Of a DNA stretch of 64,000 bases, positions 3,180-62,627 are shown piece by piece (position 1 is the first letter of the stretch; every line of letters begins with the position of its first letter). The notes beneath the pieces were generated by a model. It made no database searches. It was not told the DNA's origin and saw nothing but the letters and a program-made list of their open reading frames with translations. Position numbers and translations under genes: made by a program. The stretch lies in the NCBI GenBank assembly GCA_963971535.1, contig OZ020586.1:74506949-74570948 (forward strand), in the 5' to 3' direction. This stretch comes from Notolepis coatsorum (taxonomy: Eukaryota > Chordata > Actinopteri > Aulopiformes > Paralepididae).

Positions 3180-4640
3180 TTGTATTACATTTACATTTTG
3201 TCATTTAGCTGATGCTTTTATCCAAAGCGACTTACAAGTTCTGTATGACAAGTCAGCAGGAAGGGTACAACTCTTTCAGCTGAGTAACAATGTTCATCAA
3301 ACAGTGCTGAAACTTGGGTGCAGCAGTGTTGAGTGCATAGACATAAGACAATGTAAGGTTAGTGTTTTTTTCTCTTTAATTTCAGATATTGATTGTAGAA
3401 GTGTGTTTTTAGTCTACGGCGAAACATTGGTCGGGTTTCGGTTGTCCTAACAGGTGGGAAGTTCGTTCCAACATTGTGGAGCTCGGACCAAGAATAGGCG
3501 GCTTCTCTTTGATGACCCTCCCGGAGCTCGGATAGGAGTGGGTCTGAGGTGGCCAGAGGCTGTAGAGCAGAGGGGTCTTAAGGGTGTGTAGTTAGAGACC
3601 ATTGACCAGAGGTAGGGGGGAAGCCGTTCCCTTCGCCACGCGATATGCCAGGTCGAGGACCTTGAAGCGGCAGTGCGGCGATGGGGAGCCAGTGCATGAC
3701 TTTGGGAGGTTGGCGATCAGACGGGCGGCTGCGTTCTGGATGAGTTGAGGCTTGGCAAGGAGTGTGAGCAGAGAAGTTCAGCCGATCATCATCAAGGACT
3801 ACACCAACGTAGGGGCGTAGCGGAGATTGCGCTCGTCACCAATGCAAGAGACTCCGGTCTCGACTCCCCGAGTCGGCATTGCCTGCGGCTTGGGCCAGTC
3901 GTCATACTATCTCAATTGGCAGAGGTAGCGGGTGGAAAGTCGATGGGTGGGGATTGGACGTTGTGGACAGCGACTCCTACAGGTCGGTTTGGTGACGCCT
4001 GTACAGCAGAGACAGGAAGTATCGGGGGCAGCGTGAGCCTCCCACGCGTTACTCCTCACCACTGAGAGTCCGCGCTGGCAGGTGAAAAGATGCGACCGGC
4101 TGCCTCGTGTACCGGAGGGGACACATGATGCAAGGCTTCTATCCTCACTACAGCCGACCACTGGGAGGCATGGTCTAGCAACGTTCAAGACAGGGGAGGG
4201 GAGAATTTAAGGGGAGAATTGGCGATACGAAATTGGGATGGGAGAAAAATATAAAAATAAGGAGAAAAAGTGGATAAAAAAAAAAGGACTACCAAGGTTC
4301 TTGGCGGTCGGGGACTAGGCCACGGCTACATTTTCCACTGTGATGGAAAGGTCTGTCAGCAGGGAGGATTTGGCCGGCAAGTGAAGCAATTATGTTCCGG
4401 TTCAGTTTGAGGTGGTTGGTCATCATCCAGGTGGAGATGTCGGACAGACAGGCCGAGATTCGCTCAGAGACGTGGATATCTGAGGAAGAGTTGCGTATCA
4501 TCGGCATAGCAATGATACGAGAAGGCATGAGATGTGATAATGTTACCCAGAGATTTGGTGTAGAGGAAGAAGAGGAGGGGTCCAAGGACCTAGCCCTGGG
4601 GGACACCCGTCCGAAGGGGGCGGGGGGCTGACAGGGTTCC
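3180..4640. repeat. Dispersed fish repeat split by a SINE
   Basis: 3200-3240 carries the motif ATTTAGCTGATGCTTTTATC, a phrase common in teleost repeats. The sequence continues to about 3793 and resumes after the SINE at 4293-4640, where it has the look of a degraded repeat without intact ORFs. The SINE target duplication (AAGGACTAC) shows that the two halves were once joined. Family not known. Confidence 0.55.
3803..4283 (+). mobile_element. tRNA-derived SINE, copy 1 (~480 bp)
   Basis: Flanked by the 9-bp target duplication AAGGACTAC (3794-3802 and 4284-4292). The 5' part is tRNA-like (GTAGCG box A region), followed by a body shared with the copies at 16224-16700 and 62161-62627 and an A-rich tail (GGAGAAAAAG then an A run). 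This copy is the most diverged of the three. Confidence 0.8.
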
Positions 4641-13758: not shown

Positions 13759-16700
13759 TCAAATTATTCTCACCGGCTCCAAACGGCACATAGGCAAACT
13801 TCTCCCCGGCTGCAGGGTTCTCCAGCAGGTAGCGGTCGGGGGTGAAGTCCATCCTCTCTGACCAGGTGTCCCGGAGACGGTGGTTGACAGTAGGAGAGAC
13901 ACAGACCTGGTGTCCCGCTGGGATGGTGTAGCCTGCAGCAGTCTAATAACAACGACAACAACATACAGAGAGGGTTGTTGAGAAGCTAGCCACTGGCTCC
14001 CCCTGCTGGAGAGATGTAGATCAGCTGCTGGAAGAAGAAGGAGCCGTCCGTCATAAAATATGATTGATTGATTGATTGAAAAGTTTATTAACAGATTGCA
14101 GAATGGGTACAGTACAGTACAGCTCAATACATACAATTGTTAAGGGGATGCAGACCAGAGAAAGACTTTCGTCTTGTTTACATCAGGGTCCCCCATTTTC
14201 AATTCATCATAACATATATGACATACATGACATACAGATAGACAGTACTGCTACATCTATACATTTATGACATATCAGATTTGCAAATACAGTACTGTTT
14301 GTGATACAAAAGTGTCCAGAAAAGGAGTGTATATACATTTGGCATAGAAACTGTACATTGGAGGAGGTTGGTTGGGTGGGGTGGGGTTGGGTGGGTTGGG
14401 TGAGGGCTGTACATTGGAGGTGGGGGGGGGGGGGGGGGGGGGGGGGGTTGGGGTTGGGAAGGGGACACACACACATTTTACACTGTACATTGGAATATTG
14501 ACAAAGCCTTACTTGGTCATTTACTGTACAACTAGGTTAGGACATTTGTAGGGGCCAGTTTCGAATTGCAGTCTCACGTAGCCGTAGGTGTTTTTTGAGA
14601 GTGTTTTTGAAGGTGGGTAGTGATTCACATTCCTTTACAGCTTTAGGTAGGGCGTTCCACATTGATGTGGCATAATTGCTCAATTGATGTTTCTAAAGGG
14701 GAACATCACCCATTTTAACAAGTCAGTATTTGTGAACAAGCACCACTCTCTCCTAAAACTAGAAGTCTGAGAGAATCTGGGGCTGCTCCAGTGCTCCATA
14801 GACAATGAATGGGGCCATAAAATGTTCATGTAACCTTTCACCCTTTCAGTGACATCCCCAGTCTACAAGGTGCTTTGCATCTTAAATTATATTATTAGTA
14901 GCCTAGTAACCTACTGTAGTAACCTAGTAAGCTAGTAAGCAGTCAGAGGTCCTTACCTGAGGAGAGCGGGCCATTCTCATCATGGTCATGATGGGCGGGC
15001 GGAGCCGCAGGGTCTCCTTCAGACAGCGGTCCAGCAAGGTGAGATCTTTCAGCTGAGGAACAGACCATCTGATTACAACTGTGTCACCGCCTATATTATC
15101 CTACTTAAATGACTTTGATTATTGTGATCTGTCTTATTTGTCCACTGACTAGAATAAGCCTGGCCTGTCGTACCTGGTCGTAGTCCAGAGAGGACAGGTC
15201 TTCTCCGCACACGGCCTTCTGCTCGGCGTAGCAGCGCTCCTGCAGTGCTGGGTCTCTGGCCAGGAAGAACCCCATCCAGGAGCTGGTGGTGGAGGAGGTG
15301 TGCTGACCAGCCAGGAGCAGACCAATCAGCATCCCTGCAATCTCACTGTCGTTCAGGGGTTTACCATCTCTGAAGGAAAGAGAGCTTTTAAAGATCCCCT
15401 CCACTCACACAAAACATTCATTTGAGAGGAGAGTTATTATAACATGTTCTTCTCAGAAGAGAGGACAGTTATTATAACATGTTCTTTTCAGAAGAGAGAG
15501 GACAGTTATTATAACATGTTCTTTTCAGAAGAGAGGAGAGTTATTATAACATGTTCTTCTCAGAAGAGAGGACAGTTATTATAACATGTTCTTTTCAGAA
15601 GAGGAGTTATTATAACATGTTCTTCTCAGAAGAGAGGACAGTTATTATAACATGTTCTTTTCAGAAGAGAGAGGACAGTTATTATAACATGTTCTTTTCA
15701 GAAGAGAGAGGACAGTTATTATAACATGTTCTTTTCAGAAGAGAGAGGACAGTTATTATAACATGTTCTTTTCAGAAGAGAGAGGACAGTTATTATAACA
15801 TGTTCTTTTCAGAAGAGAGAGGACAGTTATTATAACATGTTCTTCTCAGAAGAGAGGAGTTATTATAAAATGTTATTCTCAGAAGAGAGAGGACAGTTAT
15901 TATAACATGTTCTTCTCAGAAGAGAGAGAGGACAGTTATTATAACATGTTCTTCTCAGAAGAGAGAGGACAGTTATTATAACATGTTCTTCTCAGAAGAG
16001 AGGACAGTTATTATAACATGTTCTTCTCAGAAGAGAGAGGAGAGTTATTATAACATGTTCTTCTCAGAAGAGAGGAGAGTTATTATAACATGTTCTTCTC
16101 AGAAGAGAGAGGAGAGTTATTATAACATGTTCTTCTCAGAAGAGAGGAGAGTTATTATAACATGTTCTTCTCAGAAGAGAGGGGAGTTATTATAACATGT
16201 TCTTCTCAGAAGAGAGAGGAGTTGGGCGGCCGGGTAGCGCAGCGGACTAAGCGGCTGTCTACCACCGCAGGCGCAGAGACAGTGGGATCGAATCCAGCTG
16301 CGGTACCTCCGGCTTGGTCGGCCGTCCATACTAACACAATTGGCAGTGTCAGTGGGTGGGAAAGCCGGTGGGGTGGGTCCTGGTCATTGTAAACAGCGAC
16401 TCCTACAGTTCGGTTGGGGCGCCTGCACAGCAAGGGAAGGATCTGGGAGAGTTAGTGTGACCCTTCCACACGTTACACTCTCCCAGTGAGAGTCCGCGCT
16501 GCCAGGTGAAAAGAAGCGGTGGGCTGGGTACACATGTGTCGGAGAAAGCATGCGATAGTCTCCGCCCTCCCAGACCGACGGTAGGGGGTAGAGTGCGCAA
16601 CGACCAGGAAGGGGATTGGGAATTGGCATAATGACTAACATTGGGAGGGGAGAAAAACGGAAAAAGGAGGGGGAAAAACATAATACAAAAAGAAATAAAA

Positions 16701-19700
16701 AGAAGAGAGAGGAGTTATTATAACATGTTCTTCTCAGAAGAGAAAGGAGAGTTATTATAACATGTTCTTAGAAGAGAAAGGAGTTATTATAACATGTTTT
16801 TCTCAAGAGAGGACCGTTATTATAACATGTTCTTCTCAGAAGAGAGAGGAGAGTTATTATAACATGTGCCTCTCAGAAGAGAGAGGAGAGTCTCAGGCTA
16901 GAAAGAGACCAGGTATGAAAGGAAACAGAAATGTGATCCAGTAACGGGAGCTTTAGATTGAAACCCATCCGGTCACACTCCATGTCTAGAAGGGCTACGG
17001 CATTCAGCTACTGAGGCACCCTTTGTGTTCCAATACCCACAATACTAGCCTGAACTAACGTGGTCTTACTTGTAGGTGGCATCAATGAGGGTCTGCAGGA
17101 AATCGTCCACTTTCTCTCCGGACTTCCTGCGCTTCTGAATCACCTTGAAGAAGATGTTCTTAATCTCTCTGTGAGCTCTGTCCCTCCGCCTGTCCAACAC
17201 AAAAAGGCCCAATACATGATCCAATACGTAAACAAATGGGTAGCCCCTCCCATCAGAAATGTGAAATAATAATAATAATATAATGCAGGACCTCTTTAGG
17301 GGGTCTTTAATTGGCATGCAACGAACTGGACATGCAATTGGAGCGGCACACACACACACATGCATTGTCTTTCTCAGAGTCTCTGCGCCTAACCCATCCT
17401 GTCGTCCTTTCCCCCATGCGCAGCCGGGAGCAGATAGGACGTCAACGTGAGACGCGCCCCGGGGACCAATCCAAGTGCTCCTGTCCGTCTTCACGTTAGC
17501 GATCTGTTGTTGTGCATGTTTTTCCATTGGGTTTATCTTATTGGGGGGGGACCCTTGCGAGCACGGGGAGAACATGCAAACTCCACACAGAAAGGCCTGG
17601 GAGATACCCCACCTGAGTACCTGGCATCATGGAAACCTGGTCCCCAAGCGGGAATCGAACCCTGGACCTTCTTGCTGTGAGGCGACAGTGTTAACCACTA
17701 CACCACCGTGCCGCTCTAAATAAGAATGGAGACATGTTTTCTAAGACTAACACTAAACCACAGGTAAACATGACTCAGCTCGTAATACAAGGACTAACAC
17801 TAGACCACAGGTAAACATGACTCAGCTCGTAATACAAGGACTAACACTGACTAGACCACAGGTAAACATGACTCAGCTCGTAATACAAGGACTAACACTA
17901 GACCACAGGTAAACACGACTCAGCTCGTAATACAAGGACTAACACTAGACCACAGGTAAACATGACTCAGCTCGTAATACAAGGACTAACACTAGACCAC
18001 AGGTAAACATGACTCAGCTCGTAATACAAGGACTAACACTAGACCACAGGTAAACATGACTCAGCTCGTAATACAAGGACTAACACTAGACCACAGGTAA
18101 ACATGACTCAGCTCATAATACAAGGACTAACACTAGACCACAGGGAAATATGACTAAGCTCGTAATGAATGAATGAATGAACTTTATTTAACAGATTGCA
18201 GAATGGGTACAATACAGTACGGCTCAATACATACAATTGTTAAGGGGATGCAGACCTGAGAAAGACGTTTGTCTTGTTTCCATCAGGGTCCCCCATTTTC
18301 AATTCATATAGACATTTATGACATACACAACATACATGACATTTATGGCATAAGGACATATAGGTATTTAGTACTGATACATTTGTGACATAAGCGGTAT
18401 TCAAATATACAGTACTGTTACCCCTAGATCCTGACAGAGTATATACATATGATGGGGAGGGGGGACTGTACATTAGGAGGACTAACACTAGACCACAGGG
18501 AAATAATGACTAAGCTCTTGATACAAGGATAACAGGTAAATTAGTTATTAATTGTATTTGCCCCCCTCCCCCCCACTATGCCCCCACATACTCTGGACTA
18601 CGACCCCCACCCCCCACTGACACACACCATCCCTCAGACATACTGCCACTTTATTTTACTATGTGCTACTGCTGCTAGCAAATATTTGCACTAAGCTAAT
18701 TTTTGCTAATTTAATTACTGTTTATATTGTACATATCTCGCAGTCTTGTATATTGTGTGTTGTATATGGTGTCCTACTGTATGTGTTTACTTTTGTGTTT
18801 ATATTGTCTATCTTTTTTTTAATATATATATATATACACACCGTGGGAAGGGGGGGGGGGAGACGCAATTTAAAATGTCTGTATGTCTTGCACAAATAGA
18901 AAATGGACAATAAAGTTGACTATGACTTTGCCCTCTGTACCTGAAGCTGGGCAGGGGGAGCCACCCAGGCAGCAGCCAGGCGGCGTGACTGAAGCCTCCA
19001 TCCAGGTCGGCGTAGAGCTGAGCCACCTTCTCATCCAGCAGGCTGCGGATCTCCTGACCGTGGAGACAACTGCTGGCTGTCAAGATGATCAGCTCTGCCA
19101 GGGCCTCAAACAAGTCTAGAGAGGGGGGTGGCAGAGAGAGAGAGAGGATGGGCTTGAACTATGACCTCTGCCAGTGGGTCTTGGACTTCCTGACTGGCAG
19201 ACCCCAGGTGGTGAGAGCAGGCAACTGCACCTCCTCATCCATCACCCTCAACATAGGGGCCCCCCAGGGCTGTGTTCTGAGTCCCCTCCTCTACTCCCTG
19301 TACACACACGACTGTGTGGCTCAGCGGAGTAGCAATACAATCATCAAATTTGCTGACGACACAGTGGTGGTGGGCCTGATCTCTGCCAACGACGAGAGGG
19401 CCTACCTGGAAGAGGTCAAGGTCCTGGCGGGATGGTGCCAGGAAAACAGCCTCTCCCTGAACGTCAGCAAAACAAAGGAGATGATTGTGGACTTCAGGAG
19501 GTCGGGGGTCAAGGACTACAGCCCCCTCAGCATCGACGGGGCACCGGTTGAGAGAGTCAACAGCTTTAAGTACCTCGGAGCCTACATATCCGAGGACTTG
19601 ACATGGACCACACACATTGACAGTGTTGTGAAGAAGGCACGACAACGCCTCTACTTCCTCAGGCGCCTAAGGAAGTTCCAAGTCAGTCAGAAGATCCTTA

Positions 19701-22700
19701 AGAACTTCTACTCATGTACAATAGAGAGCATCTTGACTGGCAACATCACCTCCTGGTTTGGGAATAGCACTGCACAAGACCGAAGCAGACTACAAAGAGT
19801 GACACGTTCAGCCGAACGCACAATTGGAGGGGGGCTCCCCACCCTCCAGAACATTTACAACAAGCGTTGCAAGGGCAAGGCTAAGAGAATCATTAAAGAC
19901 TCCAGTCACCCGAACAACTGCCTCTTTGAACTGCTGCGGTCAGGCAAGCGATACCGGAGTCTCAAGGCGAGCACAGAAAGACTCAGAAGAAGCTTCTATC
20001 CCCAGGCCATCAGGCTGCTAAACGAACAATGAACACTACACAACAACAACCACCAAAAGCATATAGCACACACATCCACACGCACACACATCCACACGCA
20101 CACACTCACTTTAAACAAACACACTGTAGCACCCACTCCACACACTTTATAGCACACACCCACTTTAAACAAACACACTGTAGCACCCACTCCCCACACT
20201 TTATATTTATTGATGAAGGATTGCACTACCTTACTGTAAATTGTACCTAAATTGTACCTCATCCCATTTCTGCTTTGCACTATATAGTACTGTACATTAG
20301 TACACTGCATAGTATTGTATATTATATGGTAACTCAGAACATTGTACATATGTCTATACCGAACACTGTGACCTCATTTTCTTCTTCTAAATTACATGCT
20401 ATACTATGTTATTTGATGTTATTTGATACTATCTTGTCTTAGCACAGTCTCTGGAGCCTAACAGTAAGAAGCATTTTGTATGAAAGTATTCTGTACTTCT
20501 GTATGACAACTATTAAAGAAACTTGAAACTTGAAACTTGATATTATTCAATCACTCTAGTGTAGGGCTACAAGATATTCAATCTCTCTATTGTAGGCCTA
20601 AGAAATATTCAATCTAGTGTAGGCCTAAGAGATATTAAATCTCTCTAGTGTAGGTCTAAGAGATATTCAATCTCTCTAGTGTAGGTCTAAGAGATATTCA
20701 ATCTCTCTAGTGTAGGTCTACGTGATATTCAATCTATCTAGTGTAGGTCTAAGAGATATTCAATCTCTAGTGTAGGTCTAAGTGATATTCAATCTAGTGT
20801 AGATCTAAGTGATATTCAATCTCTAGTGTAGGTCTAAGTGATATTCAATCTCTAGTGTAGGTCTAAGAGATATTCAATCTCTCTAATGTATGTCTAAGAG
20901 ATATTCAATCTCTAGTGTATGTCTAAGATATATTCAATCTCTAATGTATGTCTCTAAGAGATATTCAATCTCTCTAGTCTCTAGTGTATGTCTCTAAGAG
21001 ATATTCAATCTCTCTAGTGTATGTCTAAGAGATATTCAATCTCTAGTGTATGTCTAAGAGATATTCAATCTCTAGTGTATGTCTCTAAGAGATATTCAAT
21101 CTCTCTAGTGTATGTCTAAGAGATATTCAATCTCTCTATGTCTAAGAGATAGGGGGCACCATTGACAGAAAAGGTGAGCACGAGGTCTTACTTCTCTCTC
21201 CGCTGTCTCCCCATCGTTCAAAATACTCCTTGGTTTCTGCCTCGATGATCTTGACGTGTTGTTTGAAGTGGGCAATGTTCAGTCCAGTCTTCAACATCTT
21301 CTTTTGTTCCAGAAAGATCTGAAAGATATTAAGCAAAGTGTTTAGGCCTATTGATAAGTTTCCATGGCCAAGCTTGGCAGTAGATCTGGGAGGGAGTTAT
21401 CACTTTCGGCAGTGTATTGGCTGATATGGCTCATATAGACGATCGACAATTATCGGGCATCCCTAATGTATATGCCAATATGAAACCATCAACAATATAT
21501 TTATATATATATTTCTTCTTTTACCAATAAATATTAAAATGTCAAATTTCTGTAGTATCATAAATAATTATGCAATGGAAATTGAAAGAGAATGGGGAAT
21601 TTGAATGAAAGCTGCACTGTAATATAATTAATATAATCATTAAAACTAGTTACAAAACTAAATCTAATGTGTACTGGGAAGGCCAAACACTAAGAAAGAT
21701 ATTGTCACATTGTGGCCCTAATGCCCAGCCCTACTTGTCAGAATGTTTTTATTCGACATCGCTGCACCTAAACTGAGCAGATGTACTGTGGTTTCACCAG
21801 AGCCATATGACTCACAGGGTTGGGGACATCGTAGGCCACTCCCTTGCCGAACACTGGCGTGGTGAGCCTGGAGTAGACGTCTTCGGCGTTCAGGTCCTCG
21901 TTCTTACTGTTGAACATCAGAGTGGCCGCCTCGCTGCCCAGCAGGTAGGTGAATGTCTTCCCCACCATGGTAAAGCTGAACACAGGCCCATACTGGGAAC
22001 AGAGAGCACAGGAATATGTTAAATTAAATACAATTTAAATAAAATAAATGTTTTGTCTGTTTTTGGTTACAGTCATCCGTAAATAGTTTATATGGCTATT
22101 GGACAATATCCTCTCTTCAAATGTGATTTAATTCTGCCTTTCTTGTATCCATTATTTGGCCTGGTGGAACCAGACCTTCACCAGGTGGAACCAGACCTTC
22201 ACCAGGTGGAACCAGACCTTCACCAGGTGGAACCAGACCTTCACCAGGTGAAAACCAGACCTTCACCAGGTGAAAACCAGACCGTCACCAGGTGGAACCA
22301 GACCTTCACCAGGAGGAACCAGACCTTCACCAGGTGGAACCAGACCGTCACCAGGTGGAACCAGACCTTCACCAGGTGGAACCAGACCGTCACCAGGTGG
22401 AACCAGACCTTCACCAGGTGGAACCAGACCTTCACCAGAAGGAACCAGACCTTCACCAGGTGAAAACCAGACCTTCACCAGGTGAAAACCAGACCTTCAC
22501 CAGGTGAAAACCAGACCTTCACCAGGTGAAAACCAGACCTTCACCAGGTGGAACCAGACCTTCACCAGGTGGAACCAGACCTTCACCAGAAGGAACCAGA
22601 CCTTCACCAGGTGGAACCAGACCTTCACCAGGAGGAACCAGACCTTCACCAGGTGGAACCAGACCTTCACCAGGTGGAACCAGACCTGGCACCAGGTGGA

Positions 22701-23411: not shown

Positions 23412-23481
<70 letters not shown>

Positions 23482-26287: not shown

Positions 26288-28078
26288 ATGGATCAGTGGG
26301 GTAAGGCTGTACGCAGGCAGGACACCGCTTACTGCGAAACACTGCGCGAGGCCCTCAAGCAAAGATTAGCTCTACAAAGCAACTCGGGAACAGAAGTGCT
26401 CCACATCGACCCCGCGAATAGTGGGAGCTCCAGAGTGCTCCTCAAGGTAGTACGAGTACTCCTCAGCCACGGGGACAAGGTACTCGACACCTACGCCGTC
26501 CTCGACGACGGGTCGGAGAAGACACTCCTCCTCGCCTCCGCCGCGACCCAGTTGGACCTGCGGGGCCCAGAGGAGACGATGACCCTCCGTACCATTAGTT
26601 GAGACTTAAAGACAATCAAAGGTGAAAACTTCTCGTTCACCATTGCAGCGATCGACCACCCTGAGAAGCGGTACAGCATCAACAAGGCGCTCATGAGCTA
26701 CGACATAGGTTTGTCACGCTACGATTACCCCATCCCACAGCTGATGGAGAAGTACGACCACCTACGCCAACTGCCCATACCGCTCATCAGCGGAGCTACA
26801 CCGACCCTACTCATTGGCTCCGACCACGCGGACCTCATTGTCCCAATCAAGGCGGCCCACATCGGACCCAAAGGATGCCCAGCCGCGGTTAAGACCCGAC
26901 TGGGGTGGACGCTCCAGGGCCCCCTCTACGGACCTGCCAGCCAACCAACGTCCACACGCTGCCTTTACACCAAGGTGAGCGACACAGACAACACTCCCTT
27001 ACAGCACGTGGAGAGGCAATGGACACTAGACGCGCTGCCATTCAAGACCGAACGCAAGATGGTTCGGCCCAAAGAGGACAAGTATGCCATCGCTCTACTA
27101 GATCAGAAGACTACGAGAGTCAAGGTCGACGGAGTGTTCAGATACACAACCCCACTCTTGAGGCGGGACGGGATGCCCACTCTGCATGTGCCTAAGGGAG
27201 CGACGCACCACTGCCTACAGAGCGTATCCACGCCAGAAGAAGCAGAGAGCATCCTAATGAAGCTACAGGCTTCATTAGCCAACGGTGGATTCGACCTCCG
27301 ACAGTGGGCCAGCAGCGACCCTCAAGTTCTCCGACGCCTCCCCCCAGAGACCAAGGCCGCGAGCAGCGAGACCTGGATGGCGCAAGAGATGACCCTGGGC
27401 CTCGTCTGGCGTTTCAAGACAGACTCGCTTCACTACAGACACAAACCCCTGAGGACGGATCAGGAGACGTCCACGACTAGACTGACCACTCGGCTGAGTG
27501 TGTACCGAACACTCGCCAGCCAGTACGACCCAATGGGGTGTATCCTCCCCTACACCACCCGGGCGAAGATGCTGGTGAGGGAACTGTGGGCTCAAGAAGA
27601 GGGAGTTCTGAACTCCAAGCCCCTCAGCTACGCTCCAAGCGACGTAGCCGACATAGAACCCATCATCTCCAACCACCTCTTGATGGTGCGGCCGGACCCG
27701 GCCCTTCCTCAGACGGTGTACAGACAGGATGAGATGAACGGACGGGGGATGTGGAGACACAGCCAAGTACTGACCGACCAGTCTTGGGCCCGCTTCCTCC
27801 TACGCTATCTACCCTCCCATCCCGCCCGTCAGAAGTGGGTTAAAGACAGGGACAACCTGTCAGTGAATACCGTTGTGATGATAATAGACCAGTCACTACC
27901 CCGAGCTACGTGGCCGGCCGGCCGTGTGAGCAAAGTGATTACCGGTTCCGATGGGAAGGTCAGAGCGGCAGAAGTCATCGTCCAAGGGTGGACCTACACC
28001 AGACCAGTAGCCAAGTTGATAGAGCTGCCGGAGATCCCTGACTCCCCTGACGACGACGATAACCCACTGACTTTATAG
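26288..28078 (+). pseudogene. BEL/Pao pol with two in-frame deletions
   Basis: Starts in a retroviral-type aspartic protease: TYAVLDDGSEKTLL holds the D-x-G-S active site. A TGA at 26600-26602 interrupts the protease in the same frame. The second part continues with the BEL signature LIGSDHADLIVP and RLGWTLQGP, then the RT N-terminal lead-in KEDKYAIALLDQKT. The RT core including the YxDD motif is missing: sequence jumps to the post-catalytic segment (GGFDLRQWASSDPQVLRRLP). A second jump goes from YDPMGCILPYTTRAKMLVRE straight to the integrase-distal/DUF5641 region (VLNSKPLSYAPSD, QKWVKDRDNLS). RNase H and the integrase core are absent. A 461-codon frame survives across both joins. Without RT and integrase it is non-autonomous. 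Confidence 0.85.
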
Positions 28079-37977: not shown

Positions 37978-38764
37978 TCTAACTAGGTGTAGCACCCTGA
38001 ATATTCGACTATTATTCAGAAGTGCTGACTTGGCCTTTTATCTCCCCTTTGTGCACCAAGACATGTTAACCAGTTTCCCTTGATATTCTCCTGAACAATG
38101 ACGCGAGTTTCTCCTTCTCTCACCGGCTGGAATATGGATTATAAACACTAACTGAATCATATTCAATTCACCCAGTTCTTCCTGTGGGGCTAGTTGGCGG
38201 TGCCAGCAGGGGGCGGCGGTGACAGGCGGAGCGCAGGAGGGAGGCGTCGAGAAGAAGCAAGCCACCTGAACGGAAGTGGAGAGAACCAGCCTCTTCGACG
38301 TTGAACGTGAACCTGGATGGACGTGTCGTTGTGGAGCCCCATAGTAAGGCACGCAGGTGAATGTATTGGACTTGAGTATATTTCGGGTTATAGTAGAAAT
38401 ATAAGCGTAGTAGCGTGTTGAATATCCCAACGGAATAACCCTAGTGATACAGCGAGTTATCCTAGAAGAAAGCGGTATATTAAAGTGGCTAATGCTAACG
38501 TTATCCCCTCCAGCGAGGTGCCCCCGGCAAGTGTTGCCTGAAGAGAACTGGTGGTTAGAGGCACCGTGCGTTGTTGCATGTTCGACTAGCAGGAGGGCCG
38601 TCTAGGACCCACAGAGTAGCTTCAGTTAAGGTAGCCACCAGATTAACACGCGCGTCAACACAACTCGTCGACCAGAAGCTTGTCAGCACCGGCAGTCAGC
38701 AGCTTGTCAGCACCGGCCGTCAGCAGCTTGTCAGCACCGGAAGTCAGCAGCCTAGCACAGGAGG
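37978..38764. other. Unassigned sequence left of the 9-bp-duplication transposon
   Basis: No recognised gene. 38685-38750 has three copies of a roughly 24-bp unit around CAGCAGCTTGTCAGCACCGG. It continues on the far side of the transposon at 42362. Confidence 0.4.
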
Positions 38765-38773
38765 GCGTCCCGT

Positions 38774-39262
38774 TAGGGCGGGCCATACTTTTTTTTTTTT
38801 TGGAAAATCAATCGAGTGGGGTGTCTAAAATACGTGTTTTTTTGTGGGGAATTCAAATATGGGATTATTTTTCTAATCGGATAACTCCTACCTACATTGT
38901 TTTGGATTTCAAAATGGCCGATTTGACCATTTTTCACCCCTTGGCCATACATGGATGCCAACATGAATCTGAAGGAAATCATAACATGCAAGGTGTCTAA
39001 ATGATGTGTTTCTTAATGGGGAATTCAAATATGAGTTCATTTTTGTGATAGGATAACTCTAACCTACATAATTTTGGATTTCAAAATGGCCGATTTTACC
39101 ATTTTTCACCCCTTGGCCATACATGGATGCCAACATGAAGCTGAAGGAAATCCTAACATGCAAGGTGTCTAAATGATGTGTTTCTTAATGGGGAATTCAA
39201 ATATGATTTCATTTTTGGGATAGGATAACTCTAACCTGCATAATTTTGGATTTCAAAAATGA
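38774..39262 (+). repeat. Left terminal inverted repeat with 172-bp subrepeats
   Basis: Two full and one partial 172-bp units, each with GATTTCAAAATGGCCGATTT and CACCCCTTGGCCATACATGG. It matches the right end in reverse over its whole length with a few percent difference. Confidence 0.9.
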
Positions 39263-41276
39263 CAGGAGGAACTATCCAATGGACCAGCTAATGAGTGACA
39301 TCTACTCCGGTCTGATTTGTCAGTGGAAGAAAGCTAATGCTCTTTTCAAGTCACCTGTTGTCAATAAAAAGGTGACCATCATGACCAAGCTCAAGGAGAT
39401 GTGGAACCAGGCAGTGAGCTTTTATCTTGGGAGAAGCAAACTTGAGAGTTTAATTGTCAAGTTGGACAAGTTATTTGATATTTTAACTTGCAAGTGCCAG
39501 ATTACTAGTTGTGAGGAGGCAGGTTGTGAGGGTTGTGTGATGCAAGCCCACATTAACTGTTGCTGCAGCAAAGACAAAAAGATTCCTGTGAAAGATATTG
39601 CCTACATCAAGGGACAGAGGGAAAAGGTTGGAAGTAAAGGACCACACCAAATGGCTGGAGCTGATCTGCCTGAGCACAAGAGACAGGTGAAAACATTGGA
39701 AAGGGAGGGGATGGAAAAGAAGGCAGAGAAAAGGAGAAGGGGCAAAGAAGAAAGCTTTGCAGCAGCAGACAAGGTTGCCAGGAAGGATGTTGAGAGCTTC
39801 CTTACAGTCCCTGAAGTTGAGCTCATTCCTGAAACTGACCCTGCAGCTTCAGCAAAGCTACGGAAAAATTATGATGAGATTCCAAACATCGCCCTTGCTA
39901 GTGTAAGGTATGGCATAGGTCTAAGGCCAACTGCAGCTATAGCAACTGCAGCTCTGATTGATGCAGGACTCATCTTAGAAGATGACACAAGTAAAGTGAT
40001 TGATAAGAACAAGGTTAAGAGAGCAGAAGAAAGGTTGATGCAAGAGCTGGGGGAAGAGTTTGAGGAGAAGTGCAGGGAGGAGGGGGGGATCTCCTGTATC
40101 CTCTTTGATGGGCGGATTGACATGACCAATGTGATGATGGAAGCTGAGGGCAGTGACCAATCTTTTCCTGCAAAGATCAAGGAAGAACACTATAGTGTTG
40201 CTAGTGAGCCTGGCAGCAACTATCTGTTCCACTTTACACCAGAGAAAGCAACTAAAGAGGAGTCCCATGCAGAGAAGATTGCTAAGGTCCTGTTTGCCTG
40301 GCTGAAAGAGAGAGGTTCTGATAAGACCTTGTGGGCCATTGGAGGAGACTCGACCAATGTCAACACTGGAGTGAAGGCAGGTGTAATGCGGAAGCTGGAG
40401 CTGCACCTGGGGAGAAAGCTGGTCTGGTTGGTGTGCAACCTGCACACTGGTGAACTTCCACTGCGCCGTCTCATTGTTGAAGTTGATGGGGCTACTCTGT
40501 CAGACAACAAATTGTCTGGGCCAATAGGACAGCTCCTTGATTCTGTTACAGACTTGGAGATCAATCCTAACTTCACCAGGATCTTTCTTGGCCCTCTGCT
40601 GATCAAGCTGCCTGAGAAGATCATTCAAGATCTCTCAACTGATCAACACTATGGCTATAAGCTGGTCTGTGCAATCAGGGATGGAGTGCTTTCTGCAAGG
40701 CTGGCTCTGCTGGAGATTGGACCGGTAAACCACAGCCGCTGGCTCACCACAGCAAACAGACTCCTCAGACTCTGGGTGTCAAAGCATCAACTTAAAAGAA
40801 AGAACCTGAATAATCTACAATGCATTGTGGAATTCATCATTGGAGTGTATTATCCATGTTGGTTCAACATGAAGGTCAAGCACTCCTGGATCGAAGGGCC
40901 TAGGCACATCCTGTTTCAGCTGGACTGCCTCAAGTCTCAGAGGAAGGAGGTGCTGGATGTTGTGATGCCAACTGTGAGAAGATCTGCTTGGTATGCCCAC
41001 AGTGAAGCCATCCTCCAAACACTGCTGTGCTCTGAGGATCAAAAAGAGAGAATTGAGGGGGTGGAGAGAATCCTGGCCATCAGGGGAGAGGGGGATCCAG
41101 ACACTCAGCTGGGAGACTCCTGTGTCAGGATCAGAAGAACACCTCACATCAATAGTGACGCTTCCAGCATTGGTGGCTTAATCAGCTGGTCAGAAGATGT
41201 GTCAGAGCCACCTCTCACCTGCTCCCTAAGCACCTCTGAGGTGAAGAACTTCATCAACACCCCCATGGGTTGTTAA
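39246..41276 (+). CDS. Putative transposase, unassigned family (676 codons)
   Basis: Open from a TTG at 39246; the first ATG in frame is 39279 (codon 12), so an upstream exon is possible (GACAG/G at 39265). Visible: a Cys-rich cluster at 82-107 (CKC, C89, C94, C97, H102, CCC), which could bind zinc; a basic stretch 148-168; then a likely RNase-H-like core with FDGRID (D288, D292), IGGDSTNVNTG (D368), CNLHTGELPLRRL (H400, E403), VDGAT (D414), LSTDQ (D466) and NHSRWLTTANRLLRLW (496-510). The last resembles the conserved RW-containing segment of hAT-type transposases, but the 9-bp duplication and the other motifs do not fit hAT. Which acidic residues are catalytic is inference. TAA at 41274 is followed in the +1 frame by about 50 codons that look like the family's C-terminus, so this copy may be frameshifted near its end. 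Confidence 0.75.
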   Translation: MDFKNDRRNYPMDQLMSDIYSGLICQWKKANALFKSPVVNKKVTIMTKLKEMWNQAVSFYLGRSKLESLIVKLDKLFDILTCKCQITSCEEAGCEGCVMQAHINCCCSKDKKIPVKDIAYIKGQREKVGSKGPHQMAGADLPEHKRQVKTLEREGMEKKAEKRRRGKEESFAAADKVARKDVESFLTVPEVELIPETDPAASAKLRKNYDEIPNIALASVRYGIGLRPTAAIATAALIDAGLILEDDTSKVIDKNKVKRAEERLMQELGEEFEEKCREEGGISCILFDGRIDMTNVMMEAEGSDQSFPAKIKEEHYSVASEPGSNYLFHFTPEKATKEESHAEKIAKVLFAWLKERGSDKTLWAIGGDSTNVNTGVKAGVMRKLELHLGRKLVWLVCNLHTGELPLRRLIVEVDGATLSDNKLSGPIGQLLDSVTDLEINPNFTRIFLGPLLIKLPEKIIQDLSTDQHYGYKLVCAIRDGVLSARLALLEIGPVNHSRWLTTANRLLRLWVSKHQLKRKNLNNLQCIVEFIIGVYYPCWFNMKVKHSWIEGPRHILFQLDCLKSQRKEVLDVVMPTVRRSAWYAHSEAILQTLLCSEDQKERIEGVERILAIRGEGDPDTQLGDSCVRIRRTPHINSDASSIGGLISWSEDVSEPPLTCSLSTSEVKNFINTPMGC

Positions 41277-41560
41277 AATGGTGACTGAGGCCTCTGTTAA
41301 GTACTTTTCACAAGAAAAAAGGGATGGAGGGATCAGGGCTCAGGAGACCAGCAGGAGGCTGATGTCCAAGAATGAATCCAAGCAGGACTTGTGCAACCTG
41401 ATCAAATTTAAGAAGATAGATGATTGATGGAGCCCCATGGATTTTCTCAATAGGCTACATTGAGACGTTTGTTAAAATGGTTACAGAGGTTTCTGCTGAG
41501 TAGTTCTGGAAAGAGCTCACCTATTTATGGCTGACGTTGACTTTAAGTTTGTGTTTGTAG
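41277..41560 (+). repeat. Duplicated C-terminal coding segment of the transposase
   Basis: GTTGTTAAAATGGTGACTGA (41268) and TTTGTTAAAATGGTTACAGA (41470) start two related segments about 200 bp apart. The first stays open in the +1 frame to a TGA at 41425-41427; the second closes after about 14 codons. It could be a relic tandem duplication or a duplicated 3' exon. Confidence 0.6.
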
Positions 41561-41862
41561 GTTGGTGGCTAAAGCAGTACAGTAGGAGATCTTGCCATCC
41601 AAGAATGAGTCCAATCAAGATATTGGAACCTGGCAAAGTTCAAGAAGTCAGGAAATCGAGATTTAGCACTTAGGTGTTTGTGTGCATTACAAATACAATT
41701 TATTATTGTTAGTATTATTATTATTGATCTTTGGAGTTGTATCCAGTTATATACAGTTCACTTGTTAATACATTTGATGGCTTTGTCATTATAAATGATT
41801 TCCCATATATTTTTTATCTTTGCAATTTTGTAATACAATACCAATGGGTTCAAATGGTAAAA

Positions 41863-42352
41863 TCAGCCATTTTGAAATCCAAGATTATGCAGGTTATATT
41901 TATCCTATCCCAAAAATGACCTCATATTTGAATTCCCCATTAAGAAACACATCATTTAGACATATTGCATGTTAGGAATTCCTTCAGATTCATGTTATCA
42001 TCCATGTATGGCCAAGGGGTGAAAAATGGTAAAATCGGCCATTTTGAAATCCAAAATGATGTAGGTTAGAGTTATCCTATCCCAAAAATGAACTCATATT
42101 TGAATTCCCCATTAAGAAACACATCATTTAGACACCTTGCATGTTATGATTTCCTTCAGATTCATGTTGGCATCCATGTATGGCCAAGGGGTGAAAAATT
42201 GTCAAATCGGCCATTTTGAAATCCAAAACAATGTAGGTAGGAGTTATCCGATTAGAAAAATAATCCCATATTTGAATTCCCCACAAAAAATCACGTATTT
42301 TAGACACCCCACTCGATTGATTTTCCAAAAAAAAAAAATATGGCCCGCCCTA
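41863..42352 (-). repeat. Right terminal inverted repeat
   Basis: Inverted counterpart of 38774-39262, with the same 172-bp subrepeat structure, ending TATGGCCCGCCCTA next to the 9-bp duplication. Confidence 0.9.
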
Positions 42353-42361
42353 GCGTCCCGT

Positions 42362-53136: not shown

Positions 53137-53496
53137 ACTAGCCCCCTACAGGTGTGGGACAATATTCAATAGGGATTTAAGTGTAGTCTATCGAAGCGCC
53201 AGCAGAGCGCCGGCGACCGACTAAGACAGACAAAGACTTGGAGTTTTCCTGCTGGAGTTACCCGAGGAGGCAACCGAGTGCACTAGAGTATCTACTGCCC
53301 CTCACCTGCCCTCCTCTAGCAGGCCACTCCTTTGTACCTGCATTTTCTGGTCTTGCCTTGTTAGCTTGTCAACTTACTCGACCCACTGGTTTTAGCTCAT
53401 TAGCTAAACCTTCAATCGGCTTCATACACATAGCCTTTAGCAGTTGATCCATAGTACTTCGTATCTTTATTTGTTCCTGCTCTACCTGGTGTAAGC

Positions 53497-54351
53497 ATGG
53501 CTATGTGTTCTGTCTGTCCTGTCTGTCCCTCTCTCCTAGAAAGGTTAACTCTGTTAGAGAGTCGTGTCCTTGAACTTGAGTCAGGAAAACAGTCAGCTTT
53601 AGACGTCTTGGACACTACAGGCTTTTCTGAGGAGCCTCTAGCGAGGTCTTCTCGTCTGGAGAGTCCCAGACATAGTGCTCAGGACAAGGCCTTTGCGCCC
53701 ACTACGAAGCGGCAGTGTAACCGCTCGGCCTCGGCCTCAACAGCACCTGCTCCGCAACATGATTTTACACGTGTTGCGGGTTCCGGTCCCAGTACGCAGC
53801 CGGTTCCACTGCAACCCCGTCGTTCCGTCCTTGTGATTGGCGACTCCATCACCCGGCATATTTTGCTAGACAAGCCAGCCGAGATCAAATGTTATGGGGG
53901 AGCCAGAGCTACCGACATTGAAGCCAACCTGAGATTTCTGGTGAATAGCATAGTCAAGGCAAAAGGTAACCCACGTATCACACCCACTGAAGATAAATTC
54001 GACCATATTGTTATACACGTCGGAAATAATGACTGTAGGATGAAAGTCTCTGAGGTCACAAAGATCAACATAGTTAGGCTTTCTGACCTCGCCAGAAAGA
54101 TGAGTCGGCATCGAGTAATCTTCTCTGGCCCCCTGCCTGTAAACCGGCATGATGATGAGTTCGTGAGTAGGACAGCTTCTCTACACCGATGGCTGGAAAA
54201 ATACTGTAAAGAACAGGGCTTAGGGTTCGTGGATAATTGGTCCTCTTTCTGGGGGCACCCTGGCTTGCTGAGAAAGGACGGCGTGCATCCTAACATGCAA
54301 GGCGCCTCTCTCTTATCTCGCAATATAGACAAGATTATAGCTTCGGGCTGA
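53497..54351 (+). CDS. LINE ORF1, SGNH-esterase type
   Basis: 284 codons. A leucine-rich possible coiled coil (about 13-30) is followed by a Ser/Pro/Arg-rich linker and an SGNH hydrolase-like domain: block I VLVIGDSITRHI (Ser117), block III HVGNND (Asn178), block V DGVHPN (Asp261, His264). Esterase-type ORF1 proteins are known from CR1/L2-clade LINEs, where they bind RNA or lipids; the exact role is not settled. All SGNH residues are present and the frame is intact. ORF2 starts 24 bp after the stop. Confidence 0.88.
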   Translation: MAMCSVCPVCPSLLERLTLLESRVLELESGKQSALDVLDTTGFSEEPLARSSRLESPRHSAQDKAFAPTTKRQCNRSASASTAPAPQHDFTRVAGSGPSTQPVPLQPRRSVLVIGDSITRHILLDKPAEIKCYGGARATDIEANLRFLVNSIVKAKGNPRITPTEDKFDHIVIHVGNNDCRMKVSEVTKINIVRLSDLARKMSRHRVIFSGPLPVNRHDDEFVSRTASLHRWLEKYCKEQGLGFVDNWSSFWGHPGLLRKDGVHPNMQGASLLSRNIDKIIASG

Positions 54352-54375
54352 CAGCCACCCCACAAGCATGCCAGG

Positions 54376-57300
54376 GTGCAGGCTCTTAGCGAGCCTGCTA
54401 GTCATGCTAAACTGATGGACCCTGCCAATCCTTATTCCTTTCTTGCTCGGTCCCTCCTCCACCAGGCTCCCCACTCCTCTCTTTCTATCTCTACCCCTAA
54501 ACCTGTATACCCAATCAAAACTAGAATATCCCGTTACGCTCCGCTTTACCCAGCTCGTCCTTGTGCGATAAACCATGCCAACTTAATTGCGATTAAACCT
54601 ACCCGCATGGCTGAAAACCGCGCTGCTAAGTATACAGAGAGTGTGAAGGTTGGCCTTATCAACATCCGCTCTCTGCCAACCAAAGCTCTTTTGGTAAATG
54701 AACTGATAACAGACCATAGTCTCGACCTATTTGGCCTCACTGAGACATGGCTTAAACCTAATGATTTTCTGCCCTTAAACGAGGCCTCACCCCCTAATTT
54801 TAGTAGCTCCCACATCGCACGCACCTCCAAGAAAGGAGGCGGAGTTGCTCTAATTTATGACTCTAAGCACAACTTTACATCCGACGCAAACTGTAAGTTT
54901 TCCTCGTTTGAGGTGCTCCTGTTGCATCCCTCTCCACCCAACAGAAAGTGTGGCGGTCTGATTCCTACCTCCACTGCATCCTTTGTAATGGCTGTCCTAT
55001 ACCGCCCCCCAGGCCCTTACACCCTCTTCCTAGATGAATTTTCAACTTTCATCTCTGAGCTTGTTATGCGCTCAGATAACATTTTAATTGTTGGTGATTT
55101 TAACATTCATTCCAATAAAACTCTAGATCCCCTAAATAAGGCTTTTACCGACATCATTGACTCTGTCGGTCTCATTCAAATCGTTGACCAACCCACTCAC
55201 AGTGGTGGGAACACCCTTGACCTAGTCCTAGCCCGCGGTCTCACTGTGTCAAATTTGACCGTCTCCCCCTATGTTCATGCTCTCTCAGACCACTACCTCA
55301 TCAAATTTCAAATTGATCTGACGGTTTCTCACCCAGACAGTGTAGAATCCTACATGAGCCGTCGTATTAACGCCTCAACTGTCCCAATTCTAGTTAACTG
55401 CCTACCAGACACCCTCTCTCCCTTCCTCTCTTACTCTGGCCCCCTTGATCTCTTTACAGACAAACTTAATGCCGCCCTTCGTAGCACGCTCGACATTGTC
55501 GCTCCCCTTAAACCTAAAATTAAACGTGCTCCGCAAAAACTAACTCCCTGGTTTACGGAGGAAACGCGCTCCTTTAAAAAGGCTTGTCGCAAACTTGAAC
55601 ATAAATGGCGTTCGACCAAACTCGAAGTATTCCGCCTCGCCTGGAATGATAGTTTACGTAACTACAAAAAGGCACTCTCACTTGCCAAAACCTCTTATTT
55701 TTCCAGGCTCATAAATGAAAACAAAAACAACTCAAAGTTTCTGTTTGACACAGTTGCAAAACTTACGCAGAAACAACCAAGTGCCCTAAACCATGCGTTC
55801 TCGGCTAACGAATTCATGACATTTTTTACCAAGAAAATTGACCTCATTAGAGATGAAATTGTTGCTTTACTCAACAATCAGAGTCCCTCCCAACCTTTGA
55901 CGGGCATTCCCCCTGACTTTGATTCCAGTCATACGCTATGCTGCCTTGAAAACGTCTCACTTAGTGCCCTCTCTAAACTGGTTGGCGCGGCTAAACCTTC
56001 AACCTGTCTGTTTGACCCTCTCCCAGCAACTCTCATCAAAAAACTCTTCCCAACTCTAGGCCCTGCCTTACTCAATATCTTCAACACCTCTTTGTCTACT
56101 GGCGTGGTGCCCCTGGCCTTTAAATCAGCCGTCATTAAACCACTACTTAAAAAACCGAACCTCGACCCTCTAATCTTGAAAAATTACAGACCTATCTCCA
56201 ATCTCCCATTCCTATCCAAAGTGTTAGAACGGATCGTCGCAACGCAACTTACTGACCATTTATCAAACAATAATCTTAATGAATCATTTCAATCTGGCTT
56301 TAGAGCCTTACACTCCACCGAAACGGCGGTTACCAAAGTCACAAATGACTTACTGCTCTCTCTTGACTCAAACCTCACCTCTGTGCTCTTATTGCTTGAT
56401 CTCAGTGCAGCCTTTGACACTATCGATCACTCGATTCTTCTAGGTCGGCTTGAGAACCATGTTGGCATTCGGGGTCTTGCACTAGCTTGGTTTAAATCCT
56501 ATTTAACTGATAGAACACACTGCGTGGTCTATAATGATTTAACATCTGAGACCCTCCCAGTGCAATGTGGTGTCCCACAAGGCTCTGTCCTGGGCCCTTT
56601 GCTATTTTCGATTTACATGCTACCCCTCGGCGATATCATACGCAAATTTGGCATAAACTTTCATTTTTACGCTGATGACACCCAATTATATATACCTATT
56701 AAGCCAAATGATTCCTCCCAACTACAAAACCTTGAGGCCTGCTTGCTTGCCGTCAAAAAATGGATGTCGCAAAACTTTCTACTCCTTAATGCAGATAAAA
56801 CTGAGATGTTAATTGTTGGCCCCCCAAACCACAGAGGCCTGTTTCAGGACATCTCCCTCAACTTTGATACCTGTCATGTATCCCAGAGCTCCACCATAAA
56901 AAACCTCTGAGTCATTTTTGATTCCTCCCTCTCATTTAATGCACATATAAAAAATTTCACCAAAATTGCATTCTTCCATCTTCGTAATATCGCAAAAATA
57001 CGCCCCATTTTAACTCTGGCTGATGCTGAAACCCTGATTCATGCTTTTGTCTCATCACGTCTGGACTACTGTAATGCACTTTTTTCAGGCCTACCTAATT
57101 CAAGCATCAAAAATCTTCAACTCGTGCAAAATGCGGCTGCACGGATACTAACTAGAACTAGAAAATTTGATCACATCACACCAGTTTTGTCCGCCCTACA
57201 TTGGCTTCCTATCCAAGCCCGCTCTGACTTTAAAGTGCTACTCCTCACCTACAAAATTTTAAATGGGCTTGCACCGCTCTATCTATCCGATCTCATCTCC

Positions 57301-57516
57301 CGATACTCGCCCGCTCGTGCTCTGCGCTCACAAAATGCGGGGCTTCTATCGACCCCTAGGGTTAAAAAGAAATCCGCCGGCCACAGAGCCTTTGTCTACC
57401 GCGCTCCCTACCTGTGGAACAAATTACCTGCCGTCATCAGGGGCGCCTGCTCTGTCGAAGCTTTTAAATCCCTGCTTAAGACTCATCTTTTCTCTCTCTC
57501 CTTCAACCTACCTTGA
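54376..57516 (+). pseudogene. LINE ORF2, endonuclease-RT, one internal stop
   Basis: 1,047 codons interrupted only by TGA at 56908-56910. The APE-type endonuclease shows NIRSL (Asn96), LTETWL (Glu123), VGDFNIH (Asp241, Asn243) and SDHYLI (Asp305, His306). The RT shows LKNYRPISNLPFLSKVLERI, LLLDLSAAFDTIDH, CGVPQGSVLGPLLFSIYMLP and FHFYADDTQLY (catalytic Asp pair near 766). After the stop, the same frame continues with the C-terminal domain (LSALHWLPIQARSDFKVLLL, ending FSLSFNLP). The stop falls in the common KNLGVIFD-type motif, where a glycine codon (GGA) to TGA change would explain it. All catalytic residues seen are intact, so the copy looks young. Confidence 0.9.
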
Positions 57517-62160: not shown

Positions 62161-62627
62161 TTTTTTTTTTTTATTATCTTTTCCCCCCTTCTTTTTCCGT
62201 TTTTCTCCCCTCCCAATGTTAGTCGTTATGCCAATTCCCAATCCCCTTCCTGGTCGTTGCGCACTCTACCCCCTACAGTCGGTCTGGGAGAGTGGAGGCT
62301 ATCACATGCTTCCTCCGACACATGTGTACCCAGCCCACCGCTTCTTTTCACCTGGCAGCGCGGACTCTCATTGGGAGAGTGTAACGTGTGGAAGGTCACA
62401 CTACCTCTCCTAGATCCTTCACTTGCTGTGCAGGCACCCCGACCGAACTGTAGGAGTCGCTGTTTACAATGACCAGGACCCACCCTCGCCGGGTTTCCCA
62501 CCCGCTAACACTGCCAATTGTGTTAGTATGGATGGTCGGCCAACCCTGGAAGCACCACAGTTGGATTCGATCCCACTGTCTCTGTGGTGGTAGACAGATG
62601 CTTAGTCCGCTGCGCTACCTGGCCGCC
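62161..62627 (-). mobile_element. tRNA-derived SINE, copy 3
   Basis: A perfect 10-bp target duplication CTCCAAAGTG (62151-62160, 62628-62637). Minus-strand head GGTAGCGCAGCGGACTAAGC (box A), box B near 62570, and a tail seen as a T run at 62161-62171. The body is close to copy 2. Confidence 0.92.

Follow-up and report, generated by a model that had tools for sequence, protein, structure and literature searches.

The element and its lesions

The window, i.e. the whole 64-kb stretch of Notolepis coatsorum DNA analysed here, contains a DNA transposon of 3,579 bp at positions 38774-42352, bounded by the termini TAGGGCGGGC at 38774 and GCCCGCCCTA at 42352 and flanked on both sides by the same 9-bp target site duplication (TSD), GCGTCCCGT (Table 1). 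Its terminal inverted repeats (TIRs) align over 485 columns, with 96.5% identity between left and right. Of its third 172-bp unit the left repeat retains 95 bp, up to the start of the coding sequence, and the right repeat the whole (41852-42023); this points to an internal deletion in which the remainder of the left unit was lost, together with the first codons and any 5' leader. The termini, the perfect duplication and inverted repeats of about 490 bp made of 172-bp subrepeats had been described in the initial annotation of this DNA and are confirmed; the uninterrupted 676-codon open reading frame (ORF), the Cys-rich cluster and the motifs quoted there are also found as claimed. The frame has 676 codons if counted from the TTG at 39246, and its stop codon is at 41274-41276. 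No second copy of the element is found by blastn within the window, where the other matches outside the element correspond to a simple repeat near 23412-23480. A 24-bp tandem repeat of 3.3 copies (38673-38751) ends 13 bp short of the left duplication.

The closest relative of the encoded protein is P0001, of 796 amino acids, 84% identical over 665 aligned residues; its residue numbering is used below. Using P0001 as tblastn query, the window matches residues 47-733 and then, in another frame, residues 748-794, residues 734-747 being absent. The first two of the aligned residues are mismatched and border on the inverted repeat, thus about 48 N-terminal residues are missing. Towards the other end, a 41-bp deletion shifts the frame and removes from the window copy the predicted catalytic Glu, E746. 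The deleted segment is nearly invariant in the family, since H741 is present in 77 of 77 and E746 in 76 of 77 letter-bearing rows of an 81-row alignment. An intact autonomous element at this locus is rejected on account of the missing N-terminus and of the frameshifting deletion; the locus had been taken for a complete DNA transposon, and of this description the DNA transposon stands, the completeness does not: what remains is a deletion derivative in which the predicted catalytic Glu is lost. Weak matches at 41438-41627 may reflect an old tandem duplication of the terminal coding segment.

Table 1. Features of the transposon and of its flanks, in window positions (D, Asp; E, Glu; residues of P0001 unless stated)
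Feature	Positions	Strand	Remarks
Left target site duplication, GCGTCCCGT	38765-38773	.	Perfect 9 bp; 9-bp rule in other copies
Left terminal inverted repeat	38774-39258	+	485 bp, starts TAGGGCGGGCCATA; 172-bp units from 38820
Truncated transposase frame	39279-41276	+	665 codons from first ATG; tblastn to P0001 residues 47-733
N-terminal Cys cluster, CxC...C..C...CxC	39489-39566	+	Window residues 71-96
Predicted first catalytic Asp (FDGR; D347)	40107-40109	+	D in 80/81; model strand 343-358
Predicted second catalytic Asp (GGDSTN; D427)	40347-40349	+	D in 81/81; directly after model strand 423-426
CxxH motif (C456-H459)	40434-40445	+	Window C386-H389; C in 79/81, H in 81/81
RW dipeptide of insertion domain (R557-W558)	40737-40742	+	R in 80/81, W in 80/81
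Junction of 41-bp frameshifting deletion	41267-41269	+	Segment with H741 and E746 removed
Former transposase C-terminus, shifted frame	41269-41427	+	VVKMVTEA...KKIDD, stop; tblastn to P0001 748-794, 94% identical
Second, decayed C-terminal coding segment	41438-41627	+	Weak tblastn to C-termini of P0001 and P0004, E 0.19-0.22; direct repeats D5, D7
Right terminal inverted repeat	41870-42352	-	Built of 172-bp units
Right target site duplication, GCGTCCCGT	42353-42361	.	Identical to left

Target site duplications in the genome

The genome (3.42 Gb in 4,787 contigs) contains other copies, whose tabulation for duplication length had been proposed beforehand as a check. Scoring of 40 among 2,511 first-look candidates gave 145 match rows, with 40 long matches including the window; the other 39 were taken with their flanks, and both ends were required, with at most three mismatches in 14 bases. 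Thirty copies have both ends, and 28 of them carry an exact 9-bp duplication; L088 has 9 bp with one mismatch and L101 has none. The remaining nine of the 39 lack one or both ends in the stretch taken (L074-L077, L103, L105-L108), and a 31st both-ended copy, reconstituted from L076 and L112, has no duplication, its flanks being alike as in a tandem repeat. Exact matches occur at no other length from 5 to 13 bp and in no case does the identity continue into a tenth base, and in a control only one of 870 mismatched left-right flank pairs shares a 9-mer. Related empty sites were also aligned, as the initial annotation had asked: the flanks of five insertions were joined and set against related sequence in nine cases, and there the 9-mer region occurs once, exactly in two, with one mismatch in three, with two in two and with three in one (L073 left out), in agreement with a 9-bp duplication. 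In one lone copy, a fortuitous match, or an 8-bp duplication lengthened by a neighbouring base that happens to match, could be entertained, as the ninth base matches by chance 1 time in 4; on the copies counted, exact at nine in 28 of 30 and never at eight, and given the control and the empty sites, this explanation is rejected as having practically no probability left.

The 29 duplications (28 copies and the window) define the target consensus CYRNNNYRG. A pyrimidine at positions 2 and 7 and a purine at position 8 are observed in 29 of 29, a purine at position 3 in 25 of 29, C at position 1 in 18 and G at position 9 in 16. Complementarity of the half-sites within single TSDs does not exceed that of shuffled pairs (52 vs 49.9 expected), so that the site is palindromic only at the consensus level. 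Members of a dispersed repeat are found in the window at 3915-4285, 16309-16704 and 62161-62543; relatives of this repeat host the insertions L071 and L081, and L111 adjoins the same repeat.

Transposase domains and predicted catalytic residues

An alignment and profile of 81 family members (A2) reveals the conserved positions of the protein. In the N-terminal cluster five Cys columns are invariant in letter-bearing rows (77-79 of 81), and the sixth is conserved in at least 90%. The candidate catalytic residues are D347, D427 and E746, with a spacing between the second Asp and the Glu (D2-E) of 302-333 residues, median 317, as measured in 77 of the 81 members. The order D, D, CxxH, E agrees with that of the C/DxxH group, and in the computational model the residues lie on the expected strands and helix; motif order and model together suggest that the family belongs to the C/DxxH group of DDE transposases. 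The full-length transposase would be a protein of about 796 residues, the length of the closest relative. Its N-terminal part carries the Cys cluster, and its C-terminal part would form a DDE domain of RNase H type, in which a long stretch of helices is inserted between CxxH and the Glu; the predicted fold is most like that of Hermes.

Subfamilies and source of the transposase

Six copies form the subfamily of the window (group A: the window, L070-L073 and L104). The 41-bp deletion is observed in all six, and their pairwise Kimura two-parameter (K2P) divergence is 0.17-0.96%, with a mean of 0.68%; L074, outside the group alignment, has the same gap, from residue 733 to 748. A deletion common to all the six aligned copies suggests mobilisation by a transposase made elsewhere. 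To judge from these sequences, group A copies probably spread after losing E746, the window copy being moved in trans by the transposase of another copy. The element had been considered recent enough to keep its ORF and its duplication; recency agrees with the low divergence and the duplication is kept, the ORF is not. The window offers a clear case of deletion derivatives, with a subfamily devoid of the predicted catalytic Glu and a recent spread.

In group B, of 25 copies with a mean K2P of 0.35%, the segment deleted in group A is kept in 25 of 25, and about 147 N-terminal residues are missing; of four frames read, three stop early after SAKYFS and one is frame-shifted upstream of that point. 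In L078-L102, the most numerous subfamily seen, the DDE residues stand within a long frame that lacks about 147 N-terminal residues. In other systems truncated transposases act as repressors or dimer partners, and by analogy the product of this frame, if made, might have such a role.

At the protein level, 57 rows were scored of 2,958 candidates in the genome: 45 of them cover residues 147-794, three reach residue 1, all with in-frame stops, and two have no stop. One of these two, C29, spans residues 53-794 with all the three predicted catalytic positions; it belongs to the L076 and L112 copy mentioned above (G000:C29:53985088-53991697). That copy is 6,610 bp long, with both ends and almost all of the coding sequence, and its 5' repeat, which has about 670 bp of 172-bp units, is longer than that of the window. 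Around codon 54 its frame is separated from the first codons by an inserted sequence of about 2.05 kb, flanked by inverted arms of about 935 bp within the insert.

Relationship with known transposases

Profile searches against transposase families, as advised in the initial annotation, were made with Pfam on all the 81 members: 25 members gave 22 families and the other 56 the best 25 of 47 families, the other 22, by list order, having one member each, past E 0.12. None of the matches listed points clearly to a named transposase superfamily; in particular, the hAT dimerisation domain (PF05699), the BED zinc finger (PF02892), the MULE domain (PF10551), the KDZ profile (PF18758) and any THAP or P-type domain are absent. 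The same PF10551 profile has 14 matches over cut-off in the genome. A match to DDE_Tnp_1_7, in one member of 25 at E 0.0062, is taken as chance given the number of tests. A sequence search of the PDB revealed nothing significant, and Rfam nothing at gathering scores; one very divergent member, used as a bridge towards a named family, led to twelve proteins, none of them with a name. In the openly licensed PMC literature, covered by titles and abstract starts, with Repbase Reports and Dfam outside the scope, no description of a 9-bp hAT-like superfamily was found. As far as sequence comparison goes, the searches linked the element family to no family with a name, Repbase names being outside the comparison.

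The initial annotation had advised comparing hAT first, and rightly. The fly transposon Hermes is the best structural match to the model by VIA-align, the fold being nearer to Hermes than to the IS256-type ISCth4. With hAT transposases (Hermes, Ac, Tol2) the family shares a CxxH motif after the second Asp, the RW dipeptide, a third acidic residue within S..ER and, by prediction, an RNase H core of DDE type into which a long helical segment is inserted. The D2-E spacing of 302-333 compares with 324 in Hermes, where we take D248 as the second catalytic Asp and E572 is placed by count in the printed sequence. The termini of hAT elements are of the YARNG type, and the TAGGG at both ends of the element fits this consensus, which is a weak criterion. 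The TSD is 8 bp in hAT, with 5, 6 or 7 bp in the named variants described in PMC12730594, and 9 bp in this family (28 of 30 copies and the window, in one genome).

These data lead to a reading that we regard as likely: the window contains a crippled copy of a cut-and-paste transposon, moved in trans, whose transposase would be a C/DxxH DDE enzyme, distantly Hermes-like in predicted fold, that falls outside hAT by sequence, accessory domains and TSD length. Several points weigh against it. The TSD rule derives from one genome and from close copies of one family, with 40 of 2,511 candidates scored. Comparison by hhalign of A2 (81 members) with A3 (42 hAT proteins) gives a probability of 0.1% and P 0.6; a single hAT protein against A2 produces no meaningful alignment, and core-only and global runs are not significant, with the motifs out of register, unlike in A2 against A3. 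Foldseek puts the P element first, at E 4.5e-3, with nothing at E <= 1e-3, hence the placement beside hAT depends on a single aligner and a modelled structure. Among the 57 scored rows of 2,958 candidates none is a clearly intact transposase source, and the C29 copy, open from residue 53 to 794 and with both ends, carries no TSD.

A rival explanation is a genuine hAT that evolves fast, a "9-bp hAT" to be set beside the named hAT5, hAT6 and hAT7. The Hermes match by VIA-align, the common order of CxxH, RW and S..ER, the TAGGG termini and the variation of TSD length within hAT, as reported in PMC12730594, agree with it; however, the family departs from hAT in four features, namely its TSD length, the lack of a listed dimerisation domain, the lack of a listed BED finger, in place of which a conserved CxC..C..C..CxC cluster is found, and the lack of profile homology, so it is not filed as hAT, and we consider this explanation unlikely.

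MULE elements share other traits with the family. According to PMC6446971 their TSDs are 8-11 bp, a range that includes 9 bp; foldback-type TIRs with tandem subrepeats are described in PMC5225508, e.g. for Muta1, which also has duplications of 8-9 bp, and a CxxH and a Trp shared with hAT. However, Muta1 duplicates 8 or 9 bp without apparent preference, in contrast with the regular 9 bp and the target consensus observed here, and the D2-E spacing of 302-333 is outside the approximately 120-214 of the arthropod MULE families measured in PMC13359780. This spacing, together with the lack of a listed MULE match, bears out the earlier view that no MULE is recognisable in the protein. A further rival explanation is Rehavkus, a MULE-allied, NOF/foldback-type group from arthropods and annelids, for which PMC6446971 lists 9-bp TSDs, a PHD finger and TIRs between 26 and 400 bp long, and which is compared here by description. 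The 9-bp TSDs, the long TIRs with subrepeats, the Cys-rich cluster and the leech and crab relatives of the family would all suit a member of Rehavkus. Conversely, the D2-E spacing exceeds that of the MULE families in PMC13359780, no value for Rehavkus itself being found. In addition, no MULE match is listed, the model resembles Hermes more than ISCth4, and the likeness to PHD is not significant, the MLL5 PHD being the best solved-structure match of the Cys cluster at E 2.7; we consider membership in Rehavkus improbable.

Even less credit can be given to a P-element relative with Foldback-like ends, such as Galileo. The top two Foldseek matches are P element transposase, at E 4.5e-3 and 6.6e-3; their rmsd (root-mean-square deviation) is 13-14, 13.9 for the first, with TM scores of 0.19-0.22 over the query, no THAP or P-type domain is listed, and P elements duplicate 8 bp, vs 9 here. 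The absence of the P element from the 50 VIA-align rows obtained for the model excludes nothing. The P superfamily (P, Galileo) is placed in the C/DxxH group in PMC9587614, and Galileo, as presented in PMC3688188, shows that P elements can have long, repetitive, Foldback-like TIRs. Dada and Kolobok are also DDE enzymes of the C/DxxH type (PMC3706591; PMC9587614); however, the TSD is given as 6-7 bp for Dada (PMC3706591) and as the 4-bp TTAA for Kolobok (PMC9587614), vs 9 bp here. KDZ/Zisupton is DDE as well, with a TSD of 7-8 bp according to PMC12730594, the comparison being by TSD length and Pfam scan.

For the crippled copy moved in trans, the following mechanism can be proposed, in which the family would act in the manner of a hAT. 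The transposase would cut at the TAGGGCGGGC ends and would join them to the target strands with a 9-bp stagger, at CYRNNNYRG sites. Excision may leave hairpins on the flanks, as in hAT, guided by the conserved Trp; in PMC5225508 a role of this residue in flank handling is indicated as shown for Hermes and suggested for Muta1. Deletions would arise by faulty, interrupted gap repair, and the window copy, without N-terminus and catalytic Glu, could then be mobilised by the transposase of another copy.

A wider placement

This family, widespread in animals, appears to sit just outside hAT. The earlier proposal, that the element stands for a lineage of its own or for an atypical branch of a known one, is borne out. 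More tentatively, and with somewhat less than even confidence, it may represent an unnamed eukaryotic superfamily of cut-and-paste transposons, with a C/DxxH DDE transposase deeply related to hAT, a Cys cluster replacing BED and regular 9-bp duplications at sites of the palindromic consensus CYRNNNYRG, with members in Cnidaria, Annelida, Crustacea and fishes and with transfer from one animal lineage to another. As an outgroup, the family would bear on how the hAT fold arose and on why most hAT elements duplicate 8 bp and a related enzyme 9; how far apart the two active sites stand on the target would become a structural difference open to testing.

One protein search gave 182 relatives, including a leech and a crab; a precomputed Pfam domain is present in none of the 120 listed, and repeat annotation could put a name to proteins at present entered as "hypothetical" or "uncharacterized". 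Identity with the window protein is 82% for P0008 of the crab Chionoecetes (387/470), 84% for P0006 of the fish Aldrovandia (447/531) and 48% for P0043 of Hydra (298/622). The crab and fish values, set against that of Hydra, can be read as a sign of horizontal transfer at the level of protein identity. In viral contigs the protein profile found no copies; 17 stretches fit a pattern, none of them confirmed, and 61 viral stretches with a 14-mer end are taken as chance, since each holds a single match and the collection is very large.

Other features of the window

A reverse transcriptase with an ALKBH8_N match is found at 19058-20032, and a BEL/Pao-type remnant (Peptidase_A17, DUF5641) at 26603-28078. 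Frames resembling those of a long interspersed nuclear element (LINE) occupy 53455-57516, where a GDSL lipase-type frame (53455-54351) lies upstream of the endonuclease/reverse transcriptase (54352-56910).

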